DNA of 64,000 nucleotides. It comes from Antedon mediterranea (lineage: Eukaryota; Echinodermata; Crinoidea; Comatulida; Antedonidae). Below, in pieces: positions 493 to 46,262 of this stretch (positions within the stretch are counted from its first letter, which is position 1; each line of letters begins with the position of its first letter). Location of the stretch: contig NC_092672.1 in the NCBI RefSeq assembly GCF_964355755.1, forward strand, positions 10,846,501 through 10,910,500. The letters run 5' to 3'. The notes beneath the pieces were generated by a model. It was not told where the DNA came from. It saw only the letters and a list, made by a program, of their open reading frames with translations, and ran no database searches. The translations under genes were made by a program, and so were the position numbers.

Positions 493-564
493 AGATATTG
501 CAATGATGTTAAACCAGCAAATGCATTAGCTGACAATGTACTTATTTGATTTCTTGACAAAGAC
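493..564 (-). CDS. LRR exon, repeat 12 (last visible)
   Basis: 72 bp, phase 2. Face S-L-S-R-N, scaffold QISTLSANAFAGLTSLQY. Donor GTGAGA. Its flank matches the flank of the exon at 10966, so both derive from one unit, but this copy lacks the 42-bp insertion. Later repeats and the C-terminal cap must lie left of base 1. Confidence 0.88.
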
Positions 565-3500
565 CTTTAATAGTAAAAACAATACAGAGTAAATATAAAT
601 GAACATGTCAACTTACATTTTCATATACTGTAAATTTATTCTTACGTCTATGTTCGTTGGTAGTGAATATTCAATAAAAATACACTACAGAGTATGAATA
701 TTCATAAGTCATTGTAATGTAATCAGCGTTATAATTAATTTCAATAATTTCAGGATTGCCTGATTAGTAACATATTTCATTTTAGGAATGTCGTGAATAA
801 TAATTATTTTGCAGGTAGCGCAATTCGAAACATTATACAATATAAGTTCACACAATGTTTCAGATTTGTTTGTAATCATAAATATTTTACAAGTAGGTTA
901 ACATAAACAATCCTTACAGTATGTTCAATGATGTTAAATCAGCAAATACGTTTTCTGGCAATGTTCTTATTTGGTTTCCGTTCAAAGACCTTAAAAGTAA
1001 AAACAATAAGTACATTAATACATGTCAACTTACATTTTCTTATACATGTATTCTTTTTGTTTTGACTTGATTAGTAACAAGGAAAGTAGGGAATATTAAA
1101 TATTTTGTCAATAAATTGTTTAAAAGTTTTCAAAAAGTGGAGCATTTAGAAACATTAAACATTAGTGCATTCCATGCAATGTGTTCAATGACTTTAAACA
1201 GCAAATAAATTGGCTGACAATGTACTTAAATGTTTTTCGTACATATATCATGTTCGTTGGTAGTATAAATAATTCAATAATAATACACTACAAAGTATCG
1301 TAATCAGCGTTATAATTGTATGTTTTTTTTTATGTATAGGTTGGCAAATAATTGTTTTTCTATAAATTAATTTGTTATTTCTATGTTCCCCGGTAGACTG
1401 AATATTCATAAATTATTATAAATAAACAATGAAATTAACTTCACTAGAATTACAGTTAAAGACATACCACTGTCTGTAGATGACTCGACAATCACAGAAT
1501 CCCTTCGTATGGTTGTAAACCCAATATTAAACCACAGGACAACTTACTAATTGTTGTAATAGAGATAGAATCTTTTTTTTCACTGCCATTCCAAGAAACA
1601 TTAAAGCAAAGATTTGTTTTTATATTAAAGATGTATTGTCCCTTTGACTAATTCCCAAAATTTTTTTTTTATATTTCGAAAAAAATTGAGTCATTTTGAA
1701 GTATTATAATAGTTATTAACTTTCACCCAAAATTAGTTGAAAAAAAAATAATTTAACCGAAATACGGACGTTTTTTTGTTTAAAAACTAACTTTGACTTC
1801 CAGTCAAAGTTTTCGATCAAAACATATCTCATAATGCAACGCGCTTGTTTGGCTACTCTGTATGCATAATCATAAAACTTCCTCGCGATCTGTGTGAAAA
1901 CACCTTCTCAACCGCGACGAGTTGTAAACAATCCTAATTAGCATCATGCATAATGCATACTCGTCGCTTGAAATCTTTGTTTACTCGTGACGATTTTCAA
2001 GACGAAATGTAATCAAATTAATTTACCTGTTAATTACGTAAACTTGTTGTTTTTGCCTCAAATTTTCGACTTAAAGTGAATAACTTTAATATTACTTTGA
2101 TATGGCCAATTTAAATGTAGAATATTTTGACCTTCATTTTTTGTGTTTCAATGTACAATACATCTTTAATTGACAAGAAAATAAAACAAAATATATTTCT
2201 CTTTTGGAAGTAATTTCCAGGGTGCTAATTTTAGTTGAGTCACATGTTTTGAATATAAAACAATTCTTACAGTAGTAAACTATTTTACTGTGTTGAAGTC
2301 TTTGTTTTGTTATAATCACCAATATAAATAATGTATAGGCCTAAGTATTTGAAAATAAAACAATGCTTACAGTTTTTTCAATAATGTTAAATCAGCAAAT
2401 ACGTTGTCTGGCAATGTACTTATTTGGTTTTCGTACAACCACCTTAAAAGTAAAAAAAATGCCGAGTAAGTACATTAACATGTCAACTTACATTTTCTTA
2501 TAAATGTATTCTTATGTCTATGTTTGTTGGTAGTGAATATTCAATAAAAATACTCTACGGAGTATCTTAGTCTGAATATTCCTAAATTATTATAATGTAA
2601 TCAGCGTTATAATTAATTTCAATAATTTAAGCATTGCCTGATTAGTAAAATATTTCATTTTAGGAAAGTCGTGAATAATATTTATTTTGTCAATATATTT
2701 TGAATAGTTTTCAAAAAGTAGCGTAATTCGAAACATTCTACAATATAAGCGCACACAATGTTTCTCATTTTTTGTAATCATAAATATTTTACAAGTAGGT
2801 TAACATAAAACAATTCTCACAGTGTGTTCAATGATGTTAAACCAGCAAATACGTTGTCTGGCAATGTACTTATTTGGTTTTGGCGCAAAGACCTTGAAAG
2901 TAAAAACAATGCAGAGTAAGTATACATTAATACATGTCAACTTACATTTTCATATAAATGTATTCTTATGTCTATGTTCGTTGGTAGTCTGAATATTCAA
3001 TAAAAATACACTACGGAGTATCTTAGTCTGAATATTCCTAAATTATTATAATGTAATCAGCGTTATAATTAATTTCAATAATTTAAGCATTGCCTGATTA
3101 GTAAAATATTTCATTTTAGGAAAGTCGTGAATAATATTTATTTTGTCAATATATTTTGAATAGTTTTCAAAAAGTAGCGTAATTCGAAACATTCTACAGT
3201 ATAAGTGCACACAATGTTTCTCATTTTTTGTAATCATAAATATTTTACAAGTAGGTTAACATAAAACAATTCTTACAGTTTGTTCAATGATGTTAAATCA
3301 GCAAATACGTTGTCTGGCAATGTACTTATTTGGTTATTGTACAACCACCTTAACAGTAAAAACAATGCAGAGTAAGTACATTAACATGTCAACTTACATT
3401 TTCCTATAAATGTATTCTTATGTCTATGTTCGTTGGTAGTCTGAATATTCAATAAAAATACTCTACGGAGTATCTTAGTCTGAATATTCATAAATTATTA

Positions 3501-6500
3501 TAATGTAATCAGCGTTATAATTAATTTCAATAATTTAAGCATTGCCTGATTAGTAAAATATTTCATTTTAGGAAAGTCGTGAATAATATTTATTTTGTCA
3601 ATATATTTTGAATAGTTTTCAAAAAGTAGCGTAATTCGAAACATTCTACAATATAAGTGCACACAATGTTTATCATTTTTTGTAATCATAAATATTTTAC
3701 AAGTAGGTTAACATAAAACAATTCTCACAGTGTGTTCAATGATGTTAAACCAGCAAATACGTTTTCTGGCAATGTTCTTATTTGGTTTCCGTACAAATAC
3801 CTTAAAAGTAAAAACAATGCAGAGTAAACATTGATACATGTCAAATTACATTTTCCTATAAATGTATTCTTATGTCTATGTTTGTTGGTAGTCTGAATAT
3901 TCGATAAAAATACACTACACTACAGAGTATTTTAGTCTGAATATTCATAAATTATTATAATGTAAACAGCGTTATAATTAATTTCAATAAATTCAGGATT
4001 GTCTGATTAGTAAAATATTTCATTTTAGGAAAGTCGTGAATAGCAATTATTTTGTCAATATATTTTGAATAGTTTTCAAAAAGTAGCGTAATTCGAAACA
4101 TTCTACAATATAAGTGCACACAATGTTTCTCATTTTTTGTAATCATAAATATTTTACAAGTAGGTTAACATAAAACAATTCTTACAGTTCGTTCAATGAT
4201 GTTAAATTAGCAAATACGTTGTCTGGCAATGTACTTATTTGGTTTTTGTGCAAAGCCCTTGAAAGTAAAAACAATGCAGAGTACGTACATTAACATGTCG
4301 ACTTACATTACATTCTTATGTACAATATATGTTCGTTGGTAGTGAATATTTAATAAAAATACACTACAGACTTAGTCTGAATATTCATAAATTTTTATAA
4401 TGTAATCAGCGTTAAAATTAATTTCACTAATTTCAGCCTGGCCTGTTAGTAACATATTTCATTTTAGGAAAATCGTGAATAATAATTATTTTGCAAGTAG
4501 CGCAATTCGAAACATTGTACAATATAATTTATATATGATTATATATGATTACTGCATGCCTTGGTTTATGACTGAATCTGGTTCTTTTGGCATTTAAAAA
4601 AATTTTAACGGTTTTTAATGATTTGATTTACTGTGTACTTGTATTTACAATATTGTTGTTAGAGTCTGTTGAATTTTTACTTTGTCGGTTGTTTGCAGAA
4701 TTATTCAGCCGGTGGCTGCCTTCTGTTTGTACTATTTATGTGTTTTTTATGAATAAATACCTACATACTTACTTACTATAACTGCACACAATGTTTCAGA
4801 TTTGTTTGTAATCATAAATATTTTACAAGTAGGTTAACATAAAACAATTCTCACAGTATGTTCAATGATGTTAAGCCAGCAAATACGTTGTCTGGCAATG
4901 TACTTATTTGGTTTTCGTACAAATACCTTAAAAGTAAAAACAATGCAGAGTAAGTACATTAACATGTCAACTTACATTGCATTCGTATGTCATATTCGTT
5001 GGTAGTCTGAATATTCAATAAAAATACACTACAGAGTAGTAGTAAACAGTGGTTATTGTGTAAATTGTATCTTTAGACAAGATGCTTTACTGACATTGCC
5101 TCGTCTTTCGGATGGAACGTAAAGGCGTTGGTCCCGTGTACATAATAGTGCACGATAAAGAACTTTTCGAAAAGAGTAAGGGGATCTTCTCCCGGTGTTT
5201 TTATCTTGTAAGATACGTAGCAATAAAGTGAAAAATTAAAGAGCAAAATTCCACAATAAAAATGCATACAATGTCTCCGCTAATTTCAAAAGAAATTAAA
5301 CAATTCTTACAGTTTTTTCAATGATCTTAAATCAGAAAATACGTTTTCTGGCAATGTTCTTATTTGGTTTCCGTCCAAAGTCCTTAAAAGTAAAAACAAT
5401 GCAGGGTAAGTACATTAACATGTCAACTTACATTTTCTTATAAATGTATTCTTTTTGTTTTGACTTGATTAGTAACAAGGAAAGTAGGGAATATTAAATA
5501 TTTTGTCAATAAATTGTTTAAAAGTTTTCAAAAAGTGGAGCATTTAGAAACATTAAACATTAGTGCATTCCATACAATGTGTCTAATGATCTTAAACAGC
5601 AAATAAATTGGCTGGCAATGTACTTAAATGTTTTTCGTACATATATCAAGTTCGTTGGTAGTATAAATATTTAATAAGAATACACTACAAAGTATCGTAA
5701 TCAGCGTTATAATTGTATGGTTTTTTTATGTATAGGTTGGGAAAATAATTGTTTTTCTATAAATTAATTTGTTATGTCTATGTTCCCCGGTAGACTGAAT
5801 ATTCATAAATTATTATAAATAAACAATGAAATTAACTTCACTAGAATTTACAGTTAAAGACATACCACTGTCTGTAGATGACTCGACAATCACAGTCTCC
5901 CTTCGTAAGTATGGTTGTAAACCCAATATTAAACCACAGGACAACTTACTAATTGTTGTAATAGAGATAGAATCCTTTTTTTTCACTGCCATTCCAAGAA
6001 ACATTAAAGCAAAGATTTGTTTTTATATTAAAGATGTATTGTCCCTTTTACTAATTCCAAACACATTTTTTTTTATATTTCGAAAAAAAGTGAGTCATTC
6101 TGAAGTATCATAATAGTTATTAACTTTCACCAACAATTAGTTGAAAAAAAAAAAATTTAACCGAAATACGGACGTTTTTTTGTTTATAAAATAACTTTGA
6201 CTTCCAGTCAAAGTTTTCGATCAAAACATATCTCATAATGCAACGCGCTTGTTTGGCTACTCTGTATGCATAATCATAAAACTTCCTCGCGATCTGTTTG
6301 AAAACACCTTCTCAACCGCGACGAGTTGTAAACAATCCTAATTAGCATCATGCATAATGCATACTCGTGGTTTGAAATCTTTGTTTACTTTCACTCGTGA
6401 CGATTTTCCAGACGAAATGTAATCAAATTAATTTACCTGTTAATTACGTAAACTTATTGTTTTTGCCTCAAATTTTCGACTTAAAGTGAATAACTTTAAT

Positions 6501-9500
6501 ATTACTTTGATAAGGCCAATTTAAATTTAGAATATTTTGACCTTCATTTTTTCTGTTTCAATGGACAATACATCTTTAATTGACAAGAAAATAAAACAAA
6601 ATATATTCCTCTTTTGGAAGTAATTTCCAGGGTGCTAATTTTAGTTGAGTCATAGGTTTTGAATATAAAACAATTCTTACAGTAATAAACTATTTTACTG
6701 TGTTGAAGTCTATGTTTTGTTGTAATCACCATTATAAATAATGTATAGGCCTAAGTATTTGAAAATAAAACAATGCTTACAGTTTGTTCAATGATGTTAA
6801 ACCAGCAAATACGTTGTCTGGCAATGTCCTTATTGTGTTATTGGACAACCGCCTTAAAAGTAAAAACAATGCAGAGTAAGTATACATTAATACATGTCAA
6901 CTTACATTTTCATTAAAATGTATTCTTATGTCTATGTTCGTTGGTAGTCTGAATATTCAATAAAAATAAACTACAAAGTATCGTATTGAGCGTTAATTTC
7001 ACTAATTTCAGGATTACCTGATTAGTAAAATAATAATAATTATGTTGTCAATAAATGTTTTAATAGTTTTCAAAAAGTGGCGCAAAAATTCTACAATTTA
7101 AGTGAATATAATGTTTCTCCTTTGTTATAATCATCAATATAAATATTTCACAAGAATTAATACATGTAAAAAACATTTTCTTGTAAATGTATTGTTATGT
7201 CTATGTAAGTTGGTAGTTTGAATATTGTAATCAGCGTTATAATTGCATCGCCTTGTTGGTAAAATACACTAACAATAATAATATTGAGAATTATTTGAGA
7301 ACTTTGTTGTCTCCCTATTTAACGTCATGCTGAGAGTTGTCTCTGTTGTCAAGATTTCCAGAAAATAAAGACTACTAGTTCTATATAACGCAATATTGAA
7401 AAGATTTTTGTTGAGATCGTTGTTGAACCGAACGTAATGGTAAAATTCCGAATAGAAAAGCACCGAATGCTAAAGGAGCCGAATGGATTAATGATAAAAA
7501 GGCATTACAAAATAACATTTTGATAATATATATTTCGACTTACTATAGGCCTTACTATGCTATATAAAATACTATATTTGTTATGTCTGAATTTCGATTA
7601 AGAGATATGCAACAAATTTAAGTTCTTTTGATCTTCGATGATTCGCCTCTTGGTGGTGAATTCATTGTTGCAAATCACATGTTCGCTCGAGAATCGTCCG
7701 ATTCGGTGACCGCGTCGCGAAATCAACAATATGGACGGGAAGGCACAGGACGGTGCTCAAGAATAATTTATGCAAGAGCTTTAACAAAGTGAGCGGAGCT
7801 TTAGCCTGAAATTCCGTCGTCTTAACTTTTTGAAGACGCGCACGATAAAGTTGCCATTTTCCCGTTTACGGAGAACGACTAGAAATAATGTACATATACC
7901 TTATATATACAGCTCAAATTACACTTAAATGTGGAATTTTAAAAACTCTAACTAATATTTGAACTTTACTAATTTCAATGTTTACGTAGAAGATCGTCGA
8001 TTATTGTTAAGGATAGCGTCGACAGGAAAACAGGTTTAATTTTTCAGATGTAGTGTGTCATTTTGTAACGGCTAACTAGCTAAAAACACCAGTATCTTAG
8101 AACTTCGCAATTTCACTAAAAGACGCTCCAGTTCGGTTAATAGAAGACCTGCTTTATTATACAGAGTGTAATGATATCGAAGGGGCAATAATTACCGTAG
8201 ATTTTAAGAAGGCTTTTGACTCTATTAGTAGAGATTTTATGTTCAATGTTCTAGAAAAGTTTAACTTTGGAATGTTCTTTTGTAACTGGGTAAAAGTATT
8301 ATACAATAACGTTGAATGTGTCACAGTTAACAATGGTTTGGTTTCAAACAATTTTAAAATGGAAAGAGGTATTAGACAAGGTTGTCCTCTATCTGCTCTG
8401 TTATTCATTTTAGTGGTTGAAGTAATGGCATCTAGAATAAGAAACAAAGATGACTATAAGGGTATTAAACTTCCAAATAATGAAAATAACATAGAAGCTA
8501 GAATAAGCCAATTAGCCGATGATACTGTTTTGTATGTTGGTCAGTCAGTGTAATTGAACGTTTTTCTGAAGTATCTGGAATGACACTAAATAAAAAAAAA
8601 ACCAATGCTTTTTGGATTGGTAAATGGAAGAACAGAATAGATAGACCTTTAGAATTAAATTGGGTAAAACACCCGATCAAAATTTTAGGCATATATGTAG
8701 GGTATAATACAGAAGAATGTACCAGAAAAAACTGGGATGTTAAATTAATAGAGCTAGAAAAGACTTTAAAACAATGGAATGCTAGAAATCTCTCAATTTT
8801 TGGTAGAATATTAATCCTGAAAAGTCTTGCACTATCTAAATTAACATATGCTGCAAATATCACTGATGTTCCAAAATATGTATATACACAAGTTACAAAT
8901 CTAATATATAATTTTATTTGGAACAATAAAAGGGAAAAGATAAAAAGAAAAACTCTAATTGGTGAGGTTGAGATGGGAGGCATTAAAATGCCTGATTTTA
9001 CTCTTCATGTTAACGCACTCATGTGTGGCTGGTTAAAAAGAATTATGAATGATGATGGTGCTAAATGGAAAAATATTCCAATGTATTATATTAAAAAAAT
9101 ATGTGATGTTAATGTTTTACTTAATATGTCATGTTATAACACTATTGATGTTAATTCTGATAAAATTCCACTGTTTTACAAAAATATGATAAAAGCCTAC
9201 ATAAATTATAACAGGATCTCTAAAAAAAAACCTGAAACTTATAACGATATAATGAATGAGCAACTGTGGGGAAACCACTACGTTAAACTAAAGCATTGGA
9301 TTGACAGTGGCATTATCAGTATTAAAGACATTGTTAATAAGAACACTTTTTTAACATCAAACGAAATACTGGTGAAACTACAATGTAAAACAAACTGGTT
9401 AAATGAGTATTTGTGCATTATTAAGGCAATATCAATTCAATGGAAACGTATTATTAAGGAGGTAGATATTTTCAATTGTGATGATAATGATGAATTAGTT

Positions 9501-12500
9501 GGGACCAAGTATGAGATTAATACTACCAAACTAATATACTCATGGTTTGTGAAAGAATATTTCATTATTCCAATGTCACAACTAAAATGGGAAGAGTACT
9601 TCAATGATAACAACATTGATTGGAAAACTTCTTGGTTACGGAAAGTATGTAAAATGAAAGATAAGAAACTAGCACAATTCAATTATAAGATGTTACATAG
9701 AATACTGCCTACCAACAAACGGCTGTATCAGTGGAAAGTTAAGGAAACACAAACGTGTGACAAATGTGGAGAAATTGAAAATGAAAATCATTTGTTTTTT
9801 AGTTGTAGATTTATTCAGAAATATTGGAGGAAAATGCTTAGTATCTTTGTAAGTTTAAATCACAATAATATATCATTTAAACAATTAATACTAGGAACGG
9901 GAGATAAGCTAATAGATTATATTTACACTTTTGCAGCATTTACTATTTATATAATAAAAATGTTATCTGCACTAAATAAGCCAGTGGGTAAATCTTTATG
10001 GAATTCATTTAAAAGCAATATGTTATATAACATTGAATGTGAAACATATAACAATAAAGAAACAAGTATAGAAAAATGGGTAGCTTTAAGAAATAAGATT
10101 ATGATAATATAATTTCTAATTTGATACGATTAACCGAAAAAGAATTACAGTGATACGGGTTACTGGTGCTACTGAGCTATTATTGTTTTTTTATCATGTA
10201 TATAAATATATTGTATAATCCGGGTTGTAAAATGAAAACAAACAAATGAAAATGTGTGAACTATTTTAAAACGGGATAGATGATAATGATGATCCTGTCA
10301 AGTGTATAACAAAATATAAGAAAATTAATGAAAAAAGGAGTAATACAGAATTCATATATGTTAAAATGTTACAAGTTAAATAATACGATTTTATGTAATA
10401 TGAGATAATATGAATGTGAATAAAAGTGGTGTTTGCGCCACAAAAGAGAGAAAAAAAAAAAAAAAAGCTCCAGTGTATTGATGAATTTTATTATGATTGA
10501 ATAACTATTTTCTGTATTTTGATGTACAATTTATGTTAAAAAGTAATTTATTTTTAATATGTGAGATGATTATTTTACTTATTTTATAGATACACTATGT
10601 ACTTACTCATTTTTCTTAGTGTAGGCGCAATGTCGTCGAATTACCTTTTTTAAAACCCCAGGGATTCACGTGCATTCATCGGCGTAATTTCGCTGGATTA
10701 TTTTCTTCATGTATCACTGAAGTTGAGTAAAAAATACAACTGTGGAAGCGCAAATTCGCAGAGTCACCGATGACCAATGAGTTTAAGCATATTGCCGATG
10801 ATTACTCAGCAAATATTTGCATAACAAAGATGGACACGACCTGAAAACTGTCGGCAAGTGCGACACAAAATGACGTAGGCCTACTATGTCGAAATTCGGC
10901 TTACTATTTCTAAATAACATTTATACATATGTGCAATGATTAAGCTTCCGTAAAACAAATCTTACAGATTTTGCAATGATGTTAAACCACGGAGGTAAAA
11001 ATTGTTCTTTACCTCCATGGTTATAGCAGCATCAAATACGTTGGCTGACAATGTACTTATTTGGTTTCTGGACAAAGACCTTAACAATAGAAACAATATA
11101 AAAATGTCAATAACTGTCTGTCTGTTGGTAGTCTGAATATTAAAAAATAAATACACTTAAAAGTATTTAATCAGCGTTGTAATTAATTTAACTCATTCCA
11201 GGATTGCCCCTTCAATAATAAACTTGTTATTGTAGTAAAGTCAGAAATAATAACTATTTTGTCAAATAAATTTATAAATATTCAAAGTAAAGCATTTAGA
11301 AACATTACATTAGTGCACAAAATTTCACACGTATATAAAACTATTCTTACAGATATTCCAATGATGTTAAACCACGGAGGTAAAAATTGTTCTTTACCTC
11401 CATGGTTATAGCAGCATCAAATACGTTGGCTGACAATGTACTTATTGTGTTATTGTACAAATACCTTAAATGTAACAAGGCCATTATATGGCTGCAGTCG
11501 CGTGCTCAAATTTGAGTTCGTGTTTACCGACCGACAAACCGACCGACCAACCGACCGAAATATTTATTAATTTGTTATTTGTATTGACCAATCACAAACA
11601 GCCTTTCGTCGCGTCTATAGAGGGCGAACAACAAATGAGGGCGCTATGTAGGCCTATGCATAGTTTAAATAGTTGTTTTATTTCGTCAAGCAACTTACGT
11701 GACGTGGCGTGTAAAACGTAGTCTCGTGATGATGTGGATTAATCTACGTGAGTTCAATTCCCAGTAGATGACTTTTGTTTATTTTTTGCCACACGCAAAT
11801 TACACAGTCAATATCAAACTCCTCGAGAATTTACTGGATTTTATATGTTATATGGTACACGATAATCACGCGAAAATATCATCGTACTTGAGGAAATATA
11901 CGATTTACGATCGTCGCAGCAGTAGTCATGTGATGCAGTTTCAACCAATCACGTTCACATATTTATTATATGTAATATAATAAAATACTGTACCGTAATC
12001 AGCGTTATAGTTAATTTACTAATTTCAGGATTGCCTGTTTAGTAAAGTACTTTATGGCGCAATTGGAAAATTCTACAATATATATGCACAAAAATATTTC
12101 TGATTTCACAAGTACATGTATTTGAAAAAAAACTAAATTCTTACAGTCGTTCAGTGATTTTAAACCAACAAATACATTGGCTGACAAGAACTTATTATAG
12201 TAGAGTAATACAAGTCGAGGAGTTTATATTCAAAAACCGATAGGCTAAATGGCATTAAACAAAATCTAGATGTGCAAATTGCCAGAATGTTGCAAAAATC
12301 TGTTGATCAATGTTTATATTGCGAATCAATTTCACGTTTTGTTGCCAAGATAAGTACCATGCCAATGATTCTTTATTCCTTAGTCACGTCTAAGAAATAA
12401 CGACAGTGCCCTTTGACGTCATTTTAGTAAAGCTGGTGTTTACATATTATTGGTATTGCAATTCTTTAAATAATTTCATATTCCAGTCAATTGTAACTAT

Positions 12501-13931
12501 TACATGCAATAACATGATAAGAATTCTTAGAGATATTCCAATTCTAACCAATTAGGTTTAGGCCTATAGCCAATTTCAATGTTACTCAATAACAGAAAGC
12601 TAATTATTTCTTCTTTTCGTGTTTTAATTGTTGTTTGTATGGTTACGGTCAGATACCTAAATGAAGACTTATCAAAGTAGTATCACACTTACAAACGTTT
12701 TATTGGATAATATCGATTGTACTGAGTGATTTCAGCAGCTGTTTGATTACTCCATGAAGAGCACCATACACGGTCGTTATAACAGTCACAAGCACTTGGA
12801 CATGCTGCGTCTGTAACATGTAAACAATAATAAAACATCTAAAAATAATCCAAACCACTCAGGAATAATAGTTTAAATAAATTGATAAATAAATAAAATT
12901 AAATTTTGATTTTCAGTCAATTTTATTTGTTATTACTTGTTCTTACTCACTAATAAATTATATGAGTAGTTTTTAAAAACATATAATAATTACGATAGGC
13001 ATTTTAAATTACAAATTTCTTTATGATGTAGTTTGTATTGAAGATTATAAAAAAATGATAGTATGCTCCCAAAAAATGAGAAAAAAAATATTATAAACTG
13101 AAAATAATAACAGAGATAATAGTACATTGATGTGATTTCGCGCCGTTCAGCGGAAATCGCCTGGAAATACCGTACAAATAATTGTAATATTTGAAACCAC
13201 TTAAAATAAAATTAAAGATGAAAAATAAGATTTTTTTTTATAATGAAGAATATTATGGAAACATAGAAAAAGATATAAATATGGACCGACACATTATTGT
13301 ACGGTGGTATTGCAAATGGAAATGATAACCTTATGAAGTTAAATTAATAGCTATCATAATTATTATGAAAGTTAAATTAATTTATTAACAATGATGGCTT
13401 GAATTGTTGTTATGTAGCCTGGTTTTGTATACATTGTACTTTGTACATTTTCTAAAAATGACTGTGTTCTAAATCAAATTAACGGAGAATAATAATAATA
13501 ATAATAATAATAATAGGTGAAGGGGTCTAATAAGAATAAGAACTAAAGCGTCCTCATATATTGTTAAAGAATGAATTGTTTAGTTTGTACAATTTAATGT
13601 CCTTAATGTTAGGACCCAATTGGTCAAATTATTTGCGTTGTGTTTAGAGTAGGAGCCAAGCTTTGGTATTTCATCATAAAAATGCACTTTATAAAGGATA
13701 AAAATGGAAAAGGACCCGTGTGGCCTAAATATGAGCATGAAACTATTTTTACACGTTACGTTATCATTTTATTTAACAGAGGTGCTTAACAGACCATTAT
13801 TATTAATTGTGATGTTACTATAAGACATATCATAATATAACTAACTGAAAAATAAACTCAATCCTACCTTTAGAACTTGTACAGTATAACGGAAAGACTA
13901 CCAAAATTAGGATGATTTTAAAGATGGCCAT
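493..13931 (-). CDS. Secreted LRR protein gene with one repeat per exon (VLR-like), 3' end outside window
   Basis: Seen: coding exons 13931-13868, 12810-12693, 11464-11351, 11079-10966, 6852-6781, 5382-5311, 4926-4855, 4257-4186, 3800-3729, 3348-3277, 2892-2821, 2442-2371, 989-918 and 564-493. Each lies between an AG acceptor and a GTAAG/GTGAG donor, and the phases match throughout. The protein starts with a hydrophobic signal peptide, then an LRRNT cap, then 12 LRRs of 24 residues (pattern LxLxxNQIxTLPxNVFAxLTSLN). Family knowledge: such repeats build a curved solenoid that binds ligand on its concave face, as in agnathan VLRs, Toll receptors and GPIb. No LRRCT cap or membrane anchor is visible, so secreted or membrane-bound cannot be decided. 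ATG context is good (G at -3 and +4). What else: an expressed receptor, or a partly decayed member of an expanded family; at least three extra exons are dead. Confidence 0.9.
918..989 (-). CDS. LRR exon, repeat 11
   Basis: 72 bp, phase 2. Face S-L-N-G-N, scaffold QIRTLPENVFADLTSLNI. Donor GTAAGG. Confidence 0.9.
1180..1249 (-). pseudogene. Dead LRR exon (copy b)
   Basis: Reads about YEKHLSTLSANLFA, then a frameshift stop; both splice sites are lost. Paralogue of the relic at 5580-5649, sharing its lesions. Confidence 0.75.
1625..2169. mobile_element. TTAA-flanked MITE, copy 1
   Basis: Begins TTAAAGATGTATTGTCC and ends with the inverted form GTACAATACATCTTTAA. TTAA at both edges fits piggyBac- or Kolobok-type insertion (family knowledge). 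The interior of about 0.5 kb is non-coding. Confidence 0.75.
2371..2442 (-). CDS. LRR exon, repeat 10
   Basis: 72 bp, phase 2. Face W-L-Y-E-N, scaffold QISTLPDNVFADLTLLKK. Donor GTAAGC. Counterpart of the exon at 6781 in the 4.4-kb duplication, but with a different face. Confidence 0.9.
2821..2892 (-). CDS. LRR exon, repeat 9
   Basis: 72 bp, phase 2. Face S-L-R-Q-N, scaffold QISTLPDNVFAGLTSLNT. Donor GTGAGA. Confidence 0.9.
3277..3348 (-). CDS. LRR exon, repeat 8
   Basis: 72 bp, phase 2. Face W-L-Y-N-N, scaffold QISTLPDNVFADLTSLNK. Donor GTAAGA, acceptor TGTTAAG. A clean reference copy of the exon/intron unit of about 455 bp. Confidence 0.92.
3729..3800 (-). CDS. LRR exon, repeat 7
   Basis: 72 bp, phase 2. 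Face Y-L-Y-G-N, scaffold QIRTLPENVFAGLTSLNT. Donor GTGAGA. Confidence 0.9.
4186..4257 (-). CDS. LRR exon, repeat 6
   Basis: 72 bp, phase 2. Face A-L-H-K-N, scaffold QISTLPDNVFANLTSLNE. Donor GTAAGA, acceptor TTTCAAG. Polar basic face residues differ from its neighbours while the scaffold is unchanged. Confidence 0.9.
4528..4776 (+). mobile_element. Retroelement 3' fragment with TATAA target duplication
   Basis: Interrupts one intron unit. TATAA lies at 4523-4527 and again at 4777-4781. The insert ends in AATAAATACCTACATACTTA-type repeats typical of LINE/SINE tails. The source family was not identified. Confidence 0.6.
4855..4926 (-). CDS. LRR exon, repeat 5
   Basis: 72 bp, phase 2. Face Y-L-Y-E-N, scaffold QISTLPDNVFAGLTSLNI. 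Donor GTGAGA. The spacing to the next exon (669 bp) is enlarged by a 249-bp retroelement tail inserted at 4528-4776. Confidence 0.9.
5085..5210. mobile_element. SINE core fragment
   Basis: Contains TCTTTCGGATGGAACGT, GGTCCCGTGTACA, TAAAGAACTTTTCGAAA and TCTCCCGGTGT. Blocks in the same order occur in the tRNA-derived SINE at 47893-48250. It looks like a central domain shared by several invertebrate SINEs; its named family needs a database comparison. Confidence 0.6.
5311..5382 (-). CDS. LRR exon, repeat 4
   Basis: 72 bp, phase 2. Face T-L-D-G-N, scaffold QIRTLPENVFSDLRSLKK. Donor GTAAGA. Within the 4.4-kb segmental duplication it corresponds to the exon at 918-989, whose face reads S-L-N-G-N. 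Confidence 0.9.
5580..5649 (-). pseudogene. Dead LRR exon (copy a)
   Basis: Recognisable LRR exon sequence (STL.AN.F) with a 1-bp deletion that makes a stop after the conserved Phe, no AG acceptor and no GT donor. The same relic occurs at 1180-1249, so the decay predates the 4.4-kb duplication. Confidence 0.75.
6028..6579. mobile_element. TTAA-flanked MITE, copy 2
   Basis: Same terminal inverted repeats as copy 1 and a closely related interior. It was copied here as part of the 4.4-kb duplication rather than inserted independently. Confidence 0.75.
6781..6852 (-). CDS. LRR exon, repeat 3
   Basis: 72 bp, phase 2. Face R-L-S-N-N, scaffold TIRTLPDNVFAGLTSLNK. Donor GTAAGC, acceptor TTTTAAG. 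It is separated from repeat 2 by a 4.1-kb intron that contains the LINE at 8133-10466. Confidence 0.9.
7264..8132. other. Intronic stretch without recognised feature
   Basis: Lies between LRR repeats 3 and 2. The LRR unit similarity ends near 7260. The rest shows no convincing exon, tandem repeat or terminal inverted repeat to me. Confidence 0.5.
8133..10466 (+). mobile_element. 5'-truncated non-LTR retrotransposon (L1/Tx1-like) with poly(A) and 8-bp TSD
   Basis: GCTCCAGT occurs at 8125-8132 and again at 10467-10474, directly after a run of 16 A. The insert starts abruptly inside the reverse transcriptase, the signature of 5'-truncated target-primed insertion. It sits antisense to the LRR gene in the intron between repeats 2 and 3. 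Confidence 0.93.
8134..10112 (+). pseudogene. Retrotransposon ORF2 remnant (reverse transcriptase and C-terminal region)
   Basis: Frame 1 (8134-8553) carries RT motifs VDFKKAFDS, RGIRQGCPLSALLF and the catalytic LADDT. A short deletion with frameshift near 8545-8553 ends it at a TAA. Frame 2 (8553-10112) resumes with IERFSEVSGMTLNKKKT (thumb side) and runs to a C-terminal CxxC-H-C motif (CDKCGEIENENHLFFSC). Motif wording fits the L1/Tx1 group. The endonuclease part is absent through 5' truncation. Not functional as it stands. Confidence 0.92.
10610..10930. repeat. Diverged block repeated at 120-440
   Basis: Second copy of the block described at 120-440, directly downstream (in minus-strand sense) of LRR repeat 2. 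Confidence 0.8.
10966..11079 (-). CDS. LRR exon, repeat 2, with the same 14-residue insertion
   Basis: Variable face S-L-S-R-N; scaffold QISTLSANVF, the same 42-bp insertion as the neighbouring exon, then GLTSLQN. Donor GTAAGA. Sharing of one insertion by two adjacent exons means the exon was duplicated after the insertion happened. Confidence 0.85.
10987..11018. mobile_element. Micro-palindrome inserted in LRR exon (repeat 2)
   Basis: Arms CACGGAGGTAAA and TTTACCTCCATG (one mismatch) around an 8-base loop, 32 bp. Flanked by GTTAAAC on the left and GTTATAG on the right, a probable degenerate 7-bp duplication. It accounts for most of the exon's extra 42 bp. Confidence 0.7.
11351..11464 (-). 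CDS. LRR exon, repeat 1, with 14-residue in-frame insertion
   Basis: Variable face reads Y-L-Y-N-N; scaffold TISTLSANVF, then an extra hairpin-encoded peptide (about DAAITMEVKNNFYLR), then GLTSLEY. The exon is 114 bp instead of 72; the extra 42 bp keep frame. Acceptor ...TTTAAG, donor GTAAGA. The insertion should loop out of the convex side of the repeat, after the conserved Phe. Confidence 0.85.
11372..11403. mobile_element. Micro-palindrome inserted in LRR exon (repeat 1)
   Basis: Same palindrome and same flanks as in the exon at 10966-11079. Inherited by exon duplication, not an independent event. Confidence 0.7.
11480..11990. other. Unclassified insertion with CCGA repeats
   Basis: Interrupts the LRR intron unit. 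Contains a degenerate run of CCGACCGACC type at about 11527-11560 and ends where intron-like sequence (TAATCAGCGTTATAGTTAAT) resumes at 11997. No supported gene. Probably an old mobile element. Confidence 0.45.
12145..12216 (-). pseudogene. Damaged LRR exon next to the LRRNT exon
   Basis: The second half (FLSANVFVGLKSLND) and the donor GTAAGA survive. The first half is rearranged, about two codons are missing in the LxxN region, and no AG acceptor sits at the expected place. Probably the original first repeat, now skipped. A shorter trace of the same kind lies near 12530-12560. Confidence 0.7.
12693..12810 (-). CDS. LRR gene exon 2: LRRNT cysteine cap
   Basis: Acceptor TTACAG, donor GTAAGT. 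Reads DAACPSACDCYNDRVWC and on to YYPIKR. The four cysteines have LRRNT spacing C-x3-C-x-C-x6-C, the N-terminal cap of extracellular LRR domains. The exon starts by completing a phase-1 codon and ends phase 2, the phase used by every LRR exon downstream. In the unspliced DNA the next codon is a stop, so splicing here is required. Confidence 0.9.
13488..13515. repeat. (AAT)n microsatellite
   Basis: About nine AAT units in LRR gene intron 1. Confidence 0.95.
13868..13931 (-). CDS. LRR gene exon 1: signal peptide
   Basis: Encodes Met-Ala followed by a hydrophobic run (IFKIILILVVFPLYC) and small residues TSSK, a textbook signal peptide of about 19-21 residues. It ends phase 1 at G|GTAGGA and joins exactly to the LRRNT exon. 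The ATG at 13931-13929 has G at -3 and G at +4. No TATA box is convincing upstream. Confidence 0.88.
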
Positions 13932-20320: not shown

Positions 20321-20392
20321 AATAATTCTTATTTCAAATCAAATTTTAAGAATTAATTTGTACATATTTTTATTTCAGAACAGGCATTTACC

Positions 20393-22126
20393 ATGGATTT
20401 GCTGCAAATTATCAGAGAATTACCAGGAACTTTATGCCAGGCGCAAAGAGGTCTTATATCTGACAATATTAATGTGCTTGAAAACTGGCATCTTAGGATT
20501 GAGAATTTAAACATTTTATTTAATATTGTTTTAAGAAGGTTACAAGAAAGTGATGTTCCTCTAGATACCATTGAACAATTTGTTATACTTTCTACTGAAT
20601 TAAACTCTATTTTTGCCTCATATGATGAAAGAATAAACGGAAATCATGATCATCATAGGTGGTTTGCATCGCAACAAACTGAACAAACATCTAATGGGCG
20701 ACCAAGGATTATAGTTAATAAAGAGAATATTGAAGAACTATTTGAAATATTTCATAGTTGGAAAATTGTTGCACATCAATTAGGGATTTCTGTTGATACA
20801 CTTCGAAGAAGAAGAAGATTATATGGTTTGCCCGTTTCCCAGCCTAACTCTACTAGAAACTACTATTCAAATATTTCAAGAGATCAGCTTTTAAATGAAG
20901 TAAGAAGAATATTGATTTTATTGCCTGATGCTGGAGAAACATTAATTATTGGTGGATTAAGAAGAAGGCGTATACATGTTCAGAGAAGTCTAATTCGGGA
21001 TGCTATAATGGAGGTTGACCCAATCAATAGATCATTAAGGCGAACCAGATCTGTTATAAGAAGAGTTTACAATGTTGCAAGTCCAAATAGTTTATGGTAA
21101 GGATTACAGTATACGGTAGATGTTTTTACTAACAATAATAAATACAGTATATTTAGCAGATTTAAAAAAAGTATGAACTTTTTTAAGATGTGAATAATAA
21201 GTTGCCCATAATACTTATTTGCATGAATTATTGTTGAGGTACTGTACATATAATTGATAAGAAAATATACACATGTAACATTAACAATGTATGTCAGTAC
21301 AAAAAGTTTATTATGCATGATTCAAGAGAGTAGCCAATTTGTTTTGTTTTACAGGCACATCGATGGCCATCATAAGTTAATTCGCTGGAACTTTGTCATA
21401 TTAGGAGGCATTGATGGATATTCACGCAAGATTGTTTATCTTAGATGTTGCACAAATAACAAAGCAGAGAGTGTTCTTCAGCTATTTCAAGAAGCTGTTG
21501 GACAGCATGGTTTACCATCACGAGTCAGATCTGATAAAGGAGGCGAGAATGTATTGGTCGCTCGCTTTATGTTAAGCAATAGAGGCTTAAATCGTGGCAG
21601 CCATATAACAGGTTCATCAGTTCACAATCAAAGAATTGAAAGGCTGTGGCTGGATGTCAAACAAACTGTTGTTAAACAATTTCAAGGTATATTTAACTAC
21701 ATGGAAAATTTGGGAATTCTTGATCCCTTAAACCAGATTCATATTTATTGCCTTCATTCTGTATTTTTAAGTCTCATTAATGATTCATTAAGAGAGATGG
21801 AAGGCAATTGGAATGACCATCCCATGAGTAGCGAACATAATCTTTCACCGAATCAACTTTGGCATATGGGATTAAATGCTTATGCATTTACCAATCCTGA
21901 AGAATATCAAGATCTAATTCACAATTATGGAATTGATGAAGATGGGCCACAAGCTGTTGATGACAACAATAATGAACAGATTGTTGTTCCATATATACAA
22001 TTGCCATTAACCAACAACCAAGAACAATTTATTAAATCATATGCACTAGGTGCTAATAAAGCAGATGTTGACCAGTGTATAGACATTTATGTCAATTTAG
22101 TTCATATAGTGGAAGGCATGATGTAA
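20393..22126 (+). CDS. Integrase-like DDE transposase (rve superfamily), two coding exons
   Basis: Exons 20393-21096 and 21355-22126 (258-bp intron, GTAAGG donor, TTTTACAG acceptor) give 491 residues. Residues about 108-147 form a helix-turn-helix-like segment ([20 protein letters not shown]). The core has Asp238 (HIDGHHKL), Asp295 ([10 protein letters not shown]) and Glu330 (HNQRIERLW), a D,D34,E triad like IS3 and retroviral integrases. The ATG at 20393 is in a strong context (ACCATGG), just after an acceptor TTTTATTTCAG, so an upstream non-coding exon is likely. Family knowledge: such genes occur in many copies in fish and marine invertebrates as transposon genes, also under integrase-core names. 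No gag, protease or RT is nearby, so a retrovirus or LTR origin is unlikely. All three catalytic residues are present, so the gene looks intact. Confidence 0.87.
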
Positions 22127-26525: not shown

Positions 26526-27884
26526 TTATAATCTTCCAAAGCCTTCATGCCCATATTTAAAAGCACTTTTTATGCAAGATTTGAACTCATCTTTGTTGGT
26601 ATACCCTAAAGGTAAAAATAAAGTCGACGTACAAACAGATGATTCTGGCCACATCCTGTCATCTTTCTTTTCCAGGTATATTCTTGGCTTATTAATATTG
26701 TCGAACTGTGTAAAGCTGGTACAAAATTTTAGCATACATGTTAATTCTTGGCATGACATCTCATTAATTGCTTCCCGTAACCACTCTTTCTCTTTATGAA
26801 CATTCTCCAGAGTATCCCACTCTACTATGTCTACCATCAACTGGGGTGTCATATCCACATGTTTCATTAGGAAAATAGAACACATTTCATCGCATCTTTC
26901 AATGAATGGCATAAGTTCTGTATACTGAAGGCCATCTCTTATGCTTCGTAGTTGCTTCTCTCGTTTGCCAACTACTTCATCTCTGATTAGCATACTTTTT
27001 AATGTTTCAACATTTTCAATTGAAATTTTACATTCAACTGGCCATTGACTTGAATTGATTAACTGCTCATAGGCTGGCCCCTCTGCTGATTCATCCATAA
27101 GGTTATCTATCTCTTCTGTGCTCTTACAATTATCCAATCCATTCAAAAAAGCCAACAAATTGGCAGTTGCTGCATTTAATGGGATTATTTCTTTGGGTTG
27201 ATGCCCTGACAATATAGAATCTATTTCCTCTTCTGGTTTTCCTGCAATATATAAATAGGCCCACATAGGTAGATTTGGAAATGGTGGCCCACCATGTAAC
27301 AAACTATGCGAAATTGCCAACCCCAGAATCTTAAAGGGAACTAGATTGTTTCCTGAACGATTTGGAATAAAACCAACGTCAGTCTTGTCAAACAAACGAT
27401 TAATGGACTCTTTGAAAAATGTGTCAAAAAAATCTATACTAAGGGCCCCACCATCTACGCCCTCTTCTCCTGTGAACTCAATGCACAGTTTTTTTGTTAA
27501 CATTGATTTTTCGGCCAAACTTTTTTTGTAGAACAGGACTCCATCACGCCACAGTTCATTCCTTCTAATTTGAAGATGTTCTGTTTCTTCCAAACACTTT
27601 TTTTTAAAGCTCTTTATGCATTCCTCCTTCGAGATGTTGTTTGTGAGAAGGTCGATGGCATCATTAACGTCAGCCAAGTTAAGTGCGTCTTCAATACTCT
27701 TAGTCGACTGGTTTGGGAACATTTCATATATATATGATCTCACACTCTGCTTATTAGACAAATCTAAAGTTTGCCTTGAACACTCATTTGCACCTCTAGG
27801 CTGTGAACTTCCACCGTTACAGTGGTGTTTTTCAGTACTGGAAATCATTTTGTAACAGTTTACACACTGTATTGAGTCTACAAC
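26526..27884 (-). CDS. HECT gene exon 4 (zinc site, CUE-like, complete HECT domain)
   Basis: One long exon of 453 codons plus stop (TAA at 26526). Acceptor TATGTAG. All catalytic parts lie in this single exon, so the ligase domain could move as a unit. Confidence 0.9.
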   Translation of the reverse strand, partial: VVDSIQCVNCYKMISSTEKHHCNGGSSQPRGANECSRQTLDLSNKQSVRSYIYEMFPNQSTKSIEDALNLADVNDAIDLLTNNISKEECIKSFKKKCLEETEHLQIRRNELWRDGVLFYKKSLAEKSMLTKKLCIEFTGEEGVDGGALSIDFFDTFFKESINRLFDKTDVGFIPNRSGNNLVPFKILGLAISHSLLHGGPPFPNLPMWAYLYIAGKPEEEIDSILSGHQPKEIIPLNAATANLLAFLNGLDNCKSTEEIDNLMDESAEGPAYEQLINSSQWPVECKISIENVETLKSMLIRDEVVGKREKQLRSIRDGLQYTELMPFIERCDEMCSIFLMKHVDMTPQLMVDIVEWDTLENVHKEKEWLREAINEMSCQELTCMLKFCTSFTQFDNINKPRIYLEKKDDRMWPESSVCTSTLFLPLGYTNKDEFKSCIKSAFKYGHEGFGRL

Positions 27885-32248: not shown

Positions 32249-33011
32249 GGATGCTAGTCAAGTCGCCCCATCGCAAAGTCGCCCCATACAAAGTCGCCCC
32301 TTACACAGTCGCCCCATCGCAAAGTCGCCCCAAAACAAAGTCGCCCCGACACAGTCGCCCCATCGCAAAGTCGCCCCATCGCAAAGTCGCCCCAACGCAA
32401 AGTCGCCCCATCGCAAAGTCGCCCCATCACAAAGTCGCCCTATCGCAAAGTCAAAAATGAGCTGGTATCCAGGCGTAGGTTGAAGAAAGATTCGTAATTG
32501 TGGCTCTGGTAACTAATTTAACATTTTCGAAACTATAAATCAGGGATAATCTTTTTAGAACTTTCAAACAAGGGACTATTTTTTTAATGATTTTTAAAAA
32601 GCACTTCATTAAAACCTGTAAAATAAAAATTAAAACACAAATTATGTATATAATAGGATAAACATTGTAATGTAGGCCTAGGCCTACTATACGACATTTA
32701 GCGCGACCAAAGTAACAACGCAATCGATATCAAACGCAACCGATATGATTAAAACAGCGTACTACTACGGCGGCGCTTCATAATCATACCGAAATAAAAC
32801 CGTGGGCGACTTTGCGATGGGGCGCCTTTGCGATGGGGCGACTTTGCGTTGGGGCGACTTTGCGCTGGGGCGACTTTGTAATGGGGCGACTTTGCGATGG
32901 GGCGACTGTGCCTGGGCGACTTTGTTTTGGGGCGACTTTGCGATGGGGCGACTTTGTATTGGGCGACTTTGTATGGGGCGACTTTGCGATGGGGCGACTT
33001 GACTGGATCCC
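32249..33011. mobile_element. DNA transposon copy A with tandem-unit terminal inverted repeats
   Basis: TSD CCTAGGCC at 32241-32248 and 33012-33019. Each end is about 200 bp of 12-13 tandem units of about 16 bp (AAGTCGCCCCATCGCA), with variant units in the same order inward from both tips, so the ends are true inverted repeats. The interior (32460-32800) is non-coding. 763 bp, a deletion derivative of copy B. The GG start and 8-bp TSD would suit Merlin-like elements; hAT is the other 8-bp option. Confidence 0.93.
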
Positions 33012-33959: not shown

Positions 33960-36330
33960 TATTGTACACTCTTTATATGAATATATCATCAATCACAATA
34001 TCAAATATGATCAGTGTAGTCAAAATTTGATAACTTAGCATGAATCTTTTAATATCTACATCATCAATAATTAATATTAATATAAATCTACATCACAATG
34101 TTGGATATGATCTTTGTAGTCAAAATTTGATAACTGAGCACGCATCTTTTAATAACTACCTTATCAATAACTATTAATAATGTCCTATATCACAATGTAC
34201 AGTAGGATATGATCAGTGTTAGTCATAATTTGATAACTGAGCACGCATCTTTTAATATCTACCTCATCAATAATTAATATTAATATCATATATCACATTG
34301 TTCGATATGATCAGTGAAGTCAGAATTTGATAACTGAGCACGCATCTTTTAATATATACCTTATCAATGACTATTAATAATATCCTATATCACAATGTTG
34401 GATATGATTAGTGATTAGATAAATGAGCACGCATCTTTCAATATCTATTTCATCAATAATTATTTGTATTTTGTATTTGTATTTTTGTATTTGTATTATA
34501 ATAATTATTATTAATAATTTATATCACATTGTTCGATATGATCAGTGTAGTCATATTTGATAACTGAGCACGCCTCTTTCAATATCTATTTCATCAATAA
34601 TTATTTGTATTTTGTATTTGTATTTTTGTATTTGTACTGTATTATAATAATTATTATTAATAATTTATATCACATTGTTCGATATGATCAGTGTAGTCAT
34701 AATTTGATAACTGAGCACGCATCTTTCAATATCTATTTCATCAATAATTATTTGTATTTTGTATTTGTATTTTTGTATTTGTATTATAATAATTAATATT
34801 AATAATTTATATCACATTGTTTGATATGATCAGTGTAGTCATAATTTGATAACTGAGCACGCATCTTTCAATATCTATTTCATCAATAATTATTTGTATT
34901 TTGTATTTGTATTTTTGTATTTGTATTATAATAATTATTATTAATCATTTATATCACATTGTTCAATATGATCAGTGTAGTCATAATTTGATAACTGAGC
35001 ACGCATCTTTCAATATCTATTTCATCAATAATTATTTGTATTTTGTATTTGTATTTTGGTATTTGTATTATAATAATTATTATTAATAATTTATATCACA
35101 TTGTTGGATATGATCAGTGTAGTCATAATTTGATAACTGAGCACGCATCTTTCAATATCTATTTCATCAATAATTATTTGTATTTTGTATTTGTATTTTT
35201 GTATTTGTATTATAATAATTATTATTAATAATTTATATCACATTGTTCGATATGATCAGTGTAGTCATAATTTGATAACTGAGCACGCATCTTTCAATAT
35301 CTATTTCATCAATAATTATTATTAATAATTTATATCACATTGCTGGATATGATCAGTGTAGTCATAATTTGATAACTGAGCATACATCTTTAAAAATCTA
35401 CCTCATTAATAATTAATATTAATAATCTATATCACACTGTTGGATATGATCTGTTTAGTTTTTTAATATCTACCTTATCAATAACTATTAATAATATCCT
35501 ATATCACAATGTTGGATATTATCAGTGTAGTCATAGTTTGATAACTGTGAGCATACATATTTTAATATCTACCTCATCAATAATTATTATTAATAATCTA
35601 TATCACAATGTTGGATATGATTAGTGTAGTCATAATTTGATAACTGAGCACGCATCTTTCAATATCTATTTCATCAATAATTATTATTAATAATTTATAT
35701 CACATTGTTGGATATGATCAGTGTAGTCATACAGTAATTTGATAACTGAGCAAAAATCTTTTAATATCTACCTCATCAATAATTAATATTAATAATCTAT
35801 ATCACATTGTTCGATATGATCAGTGTAGTCATAATTTGATAACTGAGCACGCATCTTTCAATATCTACCTCATCAATAATTAATATTAATATCATATATC
35901 ACATTGTTCGATATGATCAGTGTAGTCATAATTTGATAACTGAGCACGCATCTTTTAAAATCTACCTCATCAATAATTAATATTAATAATCATATCGCAT
36001 TGTTCAATATGATCAGTGTAGTCATAAATTGATAACTGAGCAAAAATCTTTTAATATCTGCATCATCAATTAATATTAATAATCTATATCAAACTGTTGG
36101 ATATGATCTGTTTAGTTTTTTAATATCTACCTTTTCCAAAATAATATTCTATATCACAATGTTGGATATGATCAGTGTAATCATAGTTTGAACTACCTCA
36201 ACAATAATTAATATTAATTGTCTATATACCAATATCAAATATCAGTGTAGGCCTAGTCATTTGATAACTGAGCATGCATCATTTTATATCTGCTTCAAAT
36301 ATTAATATTGTCCTAATATAATAAGTGGTT
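33960..36330. repeat. Satellite array 1 (97-bp family, inverted relative to array 2)
   Basis: Core GATAACTGAGCACGCATCTT plus CACATTGTTGGATATGATCA. Between about 34440 and 35240 the unit is lengthened to about 142 bp by a TTTGTATTTTGTATTTG insertion, repeated about six times. Elsewhere units are near 97 bp and more diverged than in array 2. Confidence 0.93.
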
Positions 36331-41500: not shown

Positions 41501-43325
41501 ATATGATATTAATATAAATTATTAATGAGGTAGATATTGACAGATACGTGATCAGTTATCAAATGACGACTACACTGATCATATCCAACAATGTGATATA
41601 TGATATTAATATAAATTATTAATGAGGTAGATATTGACAGATACGTGATCAGTTATCAAATGACGACTACACTGATCCTATCCAACAATGTGATATATGA
41701 TATTAATATGAATTATTGATGCGGTAGATATTGAAAGATGCGTGCTCAGTTATCAAATTCTGACTACACTGATCATATCCAACAATGTGATATATGATAT
41801 TAATATAAATTATTATTGAGGTAGATATTAAAAGATACGTGCTCAGTTATCAAATTATGACTACACTGATCATATCCAACAATGTGATATATGATATTAA
41901 TATTAATTAATGATGTGGTAGATATTGAAAGATACGTGATCAGTTATCAAATGACGACTACACTGATCATATCCAACAATGTGATATATGATATTAATAT
42001 AAATTATTATTGAGGTAGATATTAAAAGATACGTGCTCAGTTATCAAATTCTGACTACACTGATCATATCCAACAATGTGATATATGATATTAATATAAA
42101 TTATTAATGAGGTAGATATTAAAAGATACGTGCTCAGTTATCAAATTCTGACTACACTGATCATATCCAACAATGTGATATATGATATTAATATAAATTA
42201 TTAATGAGGTAGATATTTAAAGATGCGTGCTCAGTTATCAAATTACGACTACACTGATCATATCCAACAATGTGATATATGATATTAATATAAATTATTA
42301 ATGAGGTAGATATTGAAAGATGCGTGCTCAGTTATCAAATTCTGACTACACTGATCATATCCAACAATGTGATATATGATATTAATATAAATTATTATTG
42401 AGGTAGATATTAAAAGATACGTGCTCAGTTATCAAATTCTGACTACACTGATCATATCCAACAATGTGATATATGATATTAATATAAATTATTAATGAGG
42501 TAGATATTTAAAGATGCGTGCTCAGTTATCAAATTACGACTACACTGATCATATCCAACAATGTGATATATGATATTAATATAAATTATTATTGAGGTAG
42601 ATATTAAAAGATACGTGCTCAGTTATCAATTTCTGACTACACTGATCATATCCAACAATGTGATATATGATATTAATATAAATTATTAATGAGGTAGATA
42701 TTAAAAGATGCGTGCTCAGTTATCAAATTCTGACTACACTGATCATATCCAACAATGTGATATATGATATTAATATAAATTATTATTGAGGTAGATATTA
42801 AAGGATACGTGCTCAGTTATCAAATTCTGACTACACTGATCATATCCAACAATGTGATATATGATATTAATATAAATTATTAATGAGGTAGATATTTAAA
42901 GATGCGTGCTCAGTTATCAAATTACGACTACACTGATCATATCCAACAATGTGATATAGATTATTTATATTAATTTTGATGCGGTAGATATTTAAAGATG
43001 CGTGCTCAGTTATCAAATGACGACTACACTGATCATATCCAACAATGTGATATAGATTATTAATAATAATTATTGATGATGTAGATATTAAAAGATACGT
43101 GCTCAGTTATCAAATTATGACTACACTGATCATATCCAACAATGTGATATATGATATTAATATTAAAATTGATGACGTAGATTCTAAAAGATGCGTGCTC
43201 AGTTATCAAATTATGACTACACTCATCATATTCAACAACGTGATATAGATTATTAATAATAATTATTGATGAGGTAGATGTGAGATGCGTGCTCAGTTAT
43301 CAAATTGTAACTACACTGATCATAA
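38590..43325. repeat. Satellite array 2, 97-bp monomers with higher-order structure
   Basis: About 49 monomers. Marks: GTGCTCAGTTATCAAATT, GACTACACTGATCATATCCA and ACAATGTGATATATGATATT. Variant TTAATATTAATTAATG starts at 39181, 39569, 40345 and 41897; intervals 388, 776 and 1552 equal 4, 8 and 16 times 97. Variant GATGCGGTAG starts at 38905, 39390, 40166 and 41718; intervals 485, 776 and 1552 equal 5, 8 and 16 times 97. Confidence 0.95.
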
Positions 43326-45995: not shown

Positions 45996-46262
45996 GTGTA
46001 TCATTGCGACATTTTACGCACTTGTAAACTATTTTTTAACGTTTTGGGGCGACTTTGCGATAGGGCGACTTTGTGATGGGGCGACTTTGCGATGGGGCGA
46101 CTTTGCGTTGGGGCGACTTTGCGATGGGGCGACTTTGCGATGGGGCGACTGTGTCGGGGCGACTTTGTTTTGGGGCGACTTTGCAATGGGGCGACTGTGT
46201 AAGGGGCGACTTTGTATGGGGCGACTTTGCGATGGGGCGACTTGACTAGCATCCACTGAAGA

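Follow-up and report, generated by a model that had tools for sequence, protein, structure and literature searches.

The DNA analyzed here, a 64,000-nucleotide stretch of the genome of the crinoid Antedon mediterranea (assembly GCF_964355755.1, contig NC_092672.1, positions 10,846,501 to 10,910,500; hereafter, the window), carries on its minus strand an array of leucine-rich repeat (LRR) exons that spans 493-13931. It comprises 12 LRR exons preceded by one exon for a signal peptide and one for an LRRNT-like cap; together, these 14 exons join into a single frame that runs for 376 codons without a stop, and AG and GT border each junction. A profile search with the joined exons, put forward as a check in a sequence-only reading of the same DNA, returned Pfam LRR_8 at E = 6.5e-89, far beyond chance. 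The array is genuine: a chance pattern was considered and rejected, given that the single open frame, the Pfam match, and the splice sites agree.

Layout of the array

The sequence-only reading had described twelve intact exons, all of 72 bp and each encoding exactly one 24-residue LRR, behind a signal peptide and an LRRNT cap. The twelve open exons and their common frame were borne out. The uniform length was not, as 10 of the 12 LRR exons measure 72 bp (24 residues) and the first two measure 114 bp (38 residues), the latter because each holds an identical in-frame insert of 42 bp. The product is thus a series of LxxLxLxxNxL repeats of 24 residues, two of which are extended to 38. All 12 LRR exons are bounded by phase 2 introns on both sides (phase 2-2), with near-identical splice sites. 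The features of the locus, in the order of transcription and followed by the two duplications, are as follows.

13868..13931, minus: exon 1, with ATG start and signal peptide MAIFKIILILVVFPLYCTSSK, phase-1 donor gtaggatt
12693..12810, minus: exon 2, LRRNT-like cap with CPSACDCYNDRVWC, 118 nt, phase 1 in and 2 out
12144..12215, minus: decayed LRR exon copy, acceptor lost, frame broken
11351..11464, minus: LRR exon 1, 114 nt (72 plus a 42-nt in-frame palindromic insert), phase 2-2
10966..11079, minus: LRR exon 2, 114 nt, with the 42-nt insert of LRR exon 1, phase 2-2
8101..10112, plus: remnant of a long interspersed nuclear element (LINE)-type reverse transcriptase (RVT_1, zf-RVT), two overlapping frames, by Pfam
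6781..6852, minus: LRR exon 3, 72 nt, phase 2-2
5575..5646, minus: decayed LRR exon copy, in-frame stops, no AG/GT at its borders
5311..5382, minus: LRR exon 4, 72 nt, phase 2-2
4855..4926, minus: LRR exon 5, 72 nt, phase 2-2
4186..4257, minus: LRR exon 6, 72 nt, phase 2-2
3729..3800, minus: LRR exon 7, 72 nt, phase 2-2
3277..3348, minus: LRR exon 8, 72 nt, phase 2-2
2821..2892, minus: LRR exon 9, 72 nt, phase 2-2
2371..2442, minus: LRR exon 10, 72 nt, phase 2-2
1177..1248, minus: decayed LRR exon copy, 5/72 differences from the copy at 5575
918..989, minus: LRR exon 11, 72 nt, phase 2-2
493..564, minus: LRR exon 12, 72 nt, phase 2-2, donor gtgagaat toward an exon outside the window
2355..4493: tandem exon-plus-intron units of ~452 bp, 4.7 copies, 91% matches
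1020..2290: non-exon part of a segmental duplicate, copy of ~5418-6700, including the decayed copy at 1177

At its N terminus, the product reads MAIFKIILILVVFPLYC and then CPSACDCYNDRVWC, which, by sequence pattern, fits a signal peptide followed by an N-terminal Cys cap; the leader encoded by exon 1 likewise conforms in pattern and hydropathy, with a mean Kyte-Doolittle value of 3.1 over residues 2-13. We take exon 2 to be LRRNT-like on the strength of its Cys pattern. The joined product had no match to Pfam LRRNT, a family that was not among the 11 of that Pfam search, and a similarity search with the LRRNT part (residues 18-76) gave 3 candidates, none with E <=10. At the other end, LRR exon 12 has a donor, and the 492 bases to its left include an inner ~370 that are similar to the intron following LRR exon 2 (~10600-10965), an alignment that becomes poor at the outermost bases. 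Given this donor and the intron-like bases beside it, the array may continue to the left of base 1.

To find further copies, the whole window was scanned on both strands with the consensus, allowing <=36 mismatches per 72. On the minus strand this gave 15 copies, of which 12 are open and 3 are decayed, and on the plus strand 3 matches that, at 35-36 mismatches, mark the edge of the noise. The decayed copy at 12144 has 33/72 mismatches, near this noise level, and was recognized by eye from its flanks; a further 3' exon fragment, also seen by eye, may lie near ~12530. The palindromic insert of LRR exons 1 and 2 (arms GGAGGTAAA/TTTACCTCC) adds 14 residues and keeps the frame, and a search for its pieces found none elsewhere in the window, save the 9-mer TTTACCTCC at 49858. 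The region of these two exons is 93% identical over 134 nt, and their shared insert suggests that the insertion came first and that one exon then gave rise to the other. The LINE remnant sits between LRR exons 2 and 3, in the largest intron of the gene (6853-10965). A plasmid search with the LINE stretch was empty, as was Rfam at gathering thresholds.

Among solved structures, the joined product scored best with LGR5 (E 3e-80), ALS (6e-75), and LGR4, with VLRA at 6e-37. Hence, where the sequence-only reading saw a VLR-like consensus, these matches reflect a generic LRR similarity, of which VLRs have a share but in which LGR5 and ALS come well ahead. Searched against the 7991 candidates with most words in common, the full product had 711 diffuse LRR matches, with no evident orthologue in the best 120 of them.

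Duplication and variation among the exons

That the locus evolves by exon duplication, as had been proposed from the sequence, is directly visible at two scales, namely, the ~452-bp tandem exon-plus-intron units and a larger segmental duplication whose blocks, 918-2442 and 5311-6852, lie 4.4 kb apart. Between the exons of these blocks, 40/1268 aligned sites differ, the decayed copy included. As each LRR forms a self-contained phase-2 exon, copies can be added, lost, or joined with frame and fold unbroken.

Variation among the copies is concentrated in codons 24, 2, 4, and 5 of each repeat, the concave positions of the xLxLxxN motif. In the five core tandem units, 10/12 nucleotide sites of these codons are variable, against 92/345 ungapped intron sites and 6/60 sites in the rest of the exon, such that the concave sites lie above the intron (p = 1e-4) and the other exon sites below it (p = 0.003). 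Neutral decay of all of the exons, one of the outcomes that the sequence-only reading had set against its own proposal, does not fit this ordering, in the one genome at hand, of scaffold below introns below concave codons. Further, across the ten 72-nt exons, codons 2, 4, 5, and 24 rank first in amino-acid diversity among 8855 four-codon sets, and their ratio of nonsynonymous to synonymous differences (pN/pS) is 2.35. The alignments contain no insertions or deletions in these ten exons and many in the introns. Regional hypermutation, considered as a source of the variable codons, was judged unlikely, as codon 3 (TTG, leucine) lies between hypervariable codons and yet keeps the same three bases in 10/10 exons, a codon that a mutator blind to position would hardly have spared.

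The segmental duplicates offer a second comparison. The exon pair 918/5311 has 6/72 differences (p = 0.03) and the pair 2371/6781 has 10/72 (p = 2e-4), each measured against the 40/1268 between exons; the two pairs pooled, at 16/144, exceed the intervening sequence at p = 7e-5, and all 16 differences fall in codons with an amino acid change. Codon site models, fitted to the ten 72-nt exons on three trees with custom code and a simplex optimizer rather than PAML, preferred M2a (positive selection) over M1a (nearly neutral) at p = 7e-8, 2e-8, and 2e-12. The selected codons under M2a were 2, 4, 5, and 24 on all three trees and codon 18 on two of them. A run with all twelve exons gave p = 7e-7, with codons 7, 17, 18, and 23 also exceeding 0.95, where codon 17 was affected by the manner in which the insert was excluded. 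Taken at the level of the codons, these results favor positive selection at concave codons 2, 4, 5, and 24.

The rest of the window holds several other elements. At 20357-22126 (plus), two open reading frames (ORFs) are found, the second with an integrase core domain (rva_4, PF24764, E = 1e-72), and the element is likely a DNA transposon or a domesticated integrase. The minus-strand ORF at 26526-27884 encodes a HECT domain (452 aa); across 98% of its length it shares 58% identity with LOC117122592 of Anneissia japonica, a comatulid crinoid (feather star), and only two other hits, both unnamed, were returned. On this one protein, a crinoid origin of the DNA was judged probable. A satellite of 97-bp units (48.8 copies, 92% matches) occupies 38602-43324, and arrays of 97 to 200 bp at 33983-36116 are apparently related to it. 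GC-rich 16/46-bp minisatellites (AAGTCGCCCCATCGCA) occur in both orientations at 32260-33000, 44199-44395, and 46045-46243, the arrays at 32260 and 32804 being opposed to one another, and a 33-bp minisatellite at 56821-57144 (9.9 copies, 96%) is open in one frame, as an 11-residue repeat. Finally, a 177-aa ORF at 49038-49571 (minus) has no Pfam match and, by eye, looks similar to the C-terminal region of LINE reverse transcriptases.

Competing explanations

On balance, and with real reservations, we favor the view that the array belongs to a functional gene, of which it represents the 5' part, and that this gene encodes an LRR recognition protein, either secreted or anchored in the membrane, and has been shaped by exon-unit duplication and diversifying selection. 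The gene is probably functional and fast diversifying and, judged by its signal peptide and cap, extracellular. Concave positions that have changed far faster than the rest are the pattern expected of a recognition molecule in an arms race, and recognition of varying partners appears to be the best-supported function; an immune-type receptor role would be one form of it. In the mechanism that we infer, the twelve LRR exons would be spliced together and their product would fold as an LRR solenoid. Its concave sheet would bind a ligand that varies, with microbial surface molecules or some other fast-changing partner as the most plausible candidates, while the sequence to the left of base 1 would supply an LRRCT cap together with a stalk or an anchor. 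The number of exons and the sequence of the face would change as units exchange sequence by gene conversion or unequal crossing over, and selection would then act on the new binding faces.

Several points weigh against this view or temper the numbers behind it. With respect to exchange between units, 31/61 informative site pairs in the exons cannot be placed together on a single tree, as expected if sequence passes between units, but this count cannot separate recombination from recurrent change. Recombination can also inflate site-model tests, and one site-model fit, ending at w0 = 0.99, may have stopped at an imperfect optimum. Between the decayed copies at 1177 and 5575 there are 5/72 differences, hence the 6/72 of the pair 918/5311 is hardly remarkable alone; the pooled excess comes mostly from 2371/6781, to which conversion from another exon could contribute. 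The four-codon set was spotted in the alignment before its diversity and variability were tested, and pN/pS is above 1 outside the four codons too (1.35). The 12-nt window of highest diversity is a gap-lined intron stretch (0.456) located 38 columns upstream, and the concave patch, where the exon begins, is the next distinct place (0.367); across all ten units, with flanks that are partly non-homologous, mean diversity is 0.147 in the exon versus 0.250 in the intron. The 42-bp insert in 2 of the 12 LRR exons may harm the fold, and the three decayed copies and the LINE remnant indicate that the locus also loses parts. Finally, no LRRCT, membrane anchor, or in-frame stop was found within the window, in which the C terminus is not reached.

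An alternative that we regard as unlikely is that the locus is an ordinary structural LRR gene, of matrix or adhesion type and kin to Slit or LGR, in which one-repeat exons are ancestral and the concave differences represent the fixed roles of individual repeats. The modularity of LRR exons is indeed known for the NLR and Slit families (PMC6642158), and the best solved-structure matches are LGR5, ALS, and LGR4. However, old repeats should not be near-identical in nucleotides along with their introns, the concave codons exceed the introns of the same tandem units in variation, and exons differ more than intron between the segment duplicates.

We give less credence still to the idea that the gene is in decay, namely, a once active gene that is now a pseudogene fragment with recent exon duplicates not yet broken. 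The three decayed copies, the LINE remnant in an intron, the palindromic insert in two exons, and an LRRCT not seen in the window would all be in keeping with it. Further, the copies are related, hence the ten open frames cannot be counted as independent of one another, and even if they were, the simulated chance of 10/10 remaining open is 0.02 at 5% neutral divergence (3e-4 at 10%). Decay does not readily account for scaffold codons that are less variable than introns and concave codons that are more so, for ten 72-nt exons free of the many insertions and deletions of their introns, or for AG and GT borders in 12/12 open LRR exons.

A similarly low standing attaches to combinatorial or somatic diversification, in which symmetric exons would be chosen by alternative splicing or somatic rearrangement, such that one locus yields many receptors. 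With all 12 LRR exons in phase 2-2, any subset of them remains in frame; their splice sites are near-identical, and brown algal genes of like build are described as alternatively spliced (PMC11378527). Against this, the germline gene already forms an ordinary spliced frame, and no recombination machinery was noticed in the window, where no specific search for it was made. An RNA-based form of this idea, in which this echinoderm would possess an anticipatory, VLR-analogous recognition drawing on a germline library of interchangeable single-LRR exons with hypervariable binding faces, joined in different combinations by splicing or rearranged, is conceivable but seems to us every bit as doubtful.

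Comparison with known LRR systems

The VLRs of lampreys and hagfish resemble the crinoid gene in their signal peptide, LRRNT, 24-residue LRRs, and hypervariable concave face (PMC10199209). They differ in that VLR LRRs are diversified by somatic gene conversion, whereas each repeat here is a germline exon with splice sites; likewise, the concave face is hypervariable between repeats of one gene here and between somatic variants in VLRs. In place of the incomplete germline gene and donor cassettes that characterize VLRs, 12/12 repeats are in-frame spliced exons, and membership in the VLRs was rejected on these grounds. An LRRCT, connecting peptide, and stalk of VLR type would lie outside the window, as would the transmembrane segment and TIR domain of a Toll-like receptor.

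Within animals, frame-preserving LRR exons suited to alternative splicing are also a trait of the Slit, LGR, and NLR genes (PMC6642158 for the modularity of Slit and NLR), and the part at hand of an LGR review (PMC4561518) holds nothing on LGR exon layout. The VLR-like LRR proteins of amphioxus (FrLRR, Bf66946) belong among the invertebrate extracellular LRR proteins that have been compared with VLRs and for which exon shuffling has been invoked; FrLRR has 9 exons, with the LRR region in exons 5 to 8, and the excerpted account makes no mention of a single-repeat exon array (PMC10199209). No animal locus of the present build appeared among the matches listed in the open-licence PMC literature, by titles and abstract openings. 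The repeats of Slit, LGR, and NLR genes are old and stable and are not known to include near-identical exon-intron units or an excess of concave change.

Other parallels are found outside animals. The LRR genes of the ciliate Tetrahymena share a uniform exon length, phase-2 introns, and an expansion ascribed to exon shuffling, but their exons are 90 bp long and their repeats comprise 30 residues (PMC6564038). The closest match in design that we met is that of the brown algal LRR-ROCO genes, which have exon length, phase, and selected-site spacing in common with the crinoid gene. These genes are reportedly treated as well by Zambounis et al. 2012, a work cited in Teng et al. 2024. According to the latter, their 72-bp phase-2 exons, with one LRR each, are arranged in tandem and shuffled, are alternatively spliced, and accompany a ROC-COR GTPase (PMC11378527, Teng et al. 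2024). In the same account, the concave-side sites 14, 16, 18, and 19 are under positive selection (PMC11378527), and these are spaced as codons 24, 2, 4, and 5 are here; we met them only after our four-codon tests. Unlike LRR-ROCO, the crinoid gene has a signal peptide and an LRRNT-like cap. Pfam detected no ROC-COR in the joined product, which is the 5' part only, with its C terminus outside the window, and the signal peptide makes a cytosolic ROCO unlikely.

If our favored reading is correct, the exon-shuffling LRR genes of brown algae would have in the crinoid gene a counterpart that is animal and extracellular, matched in exon length, intron phase, and the spacing of selected positions in an unrelated lineage. 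Such loci are easily missed, because most exons are 72 bp long and lie within AT-rich, repeat-like introns. The gene would also bring within reach of testing, in animals, the question of whether recognition makes combinatorial use of symmetric LRR exons in tandem.

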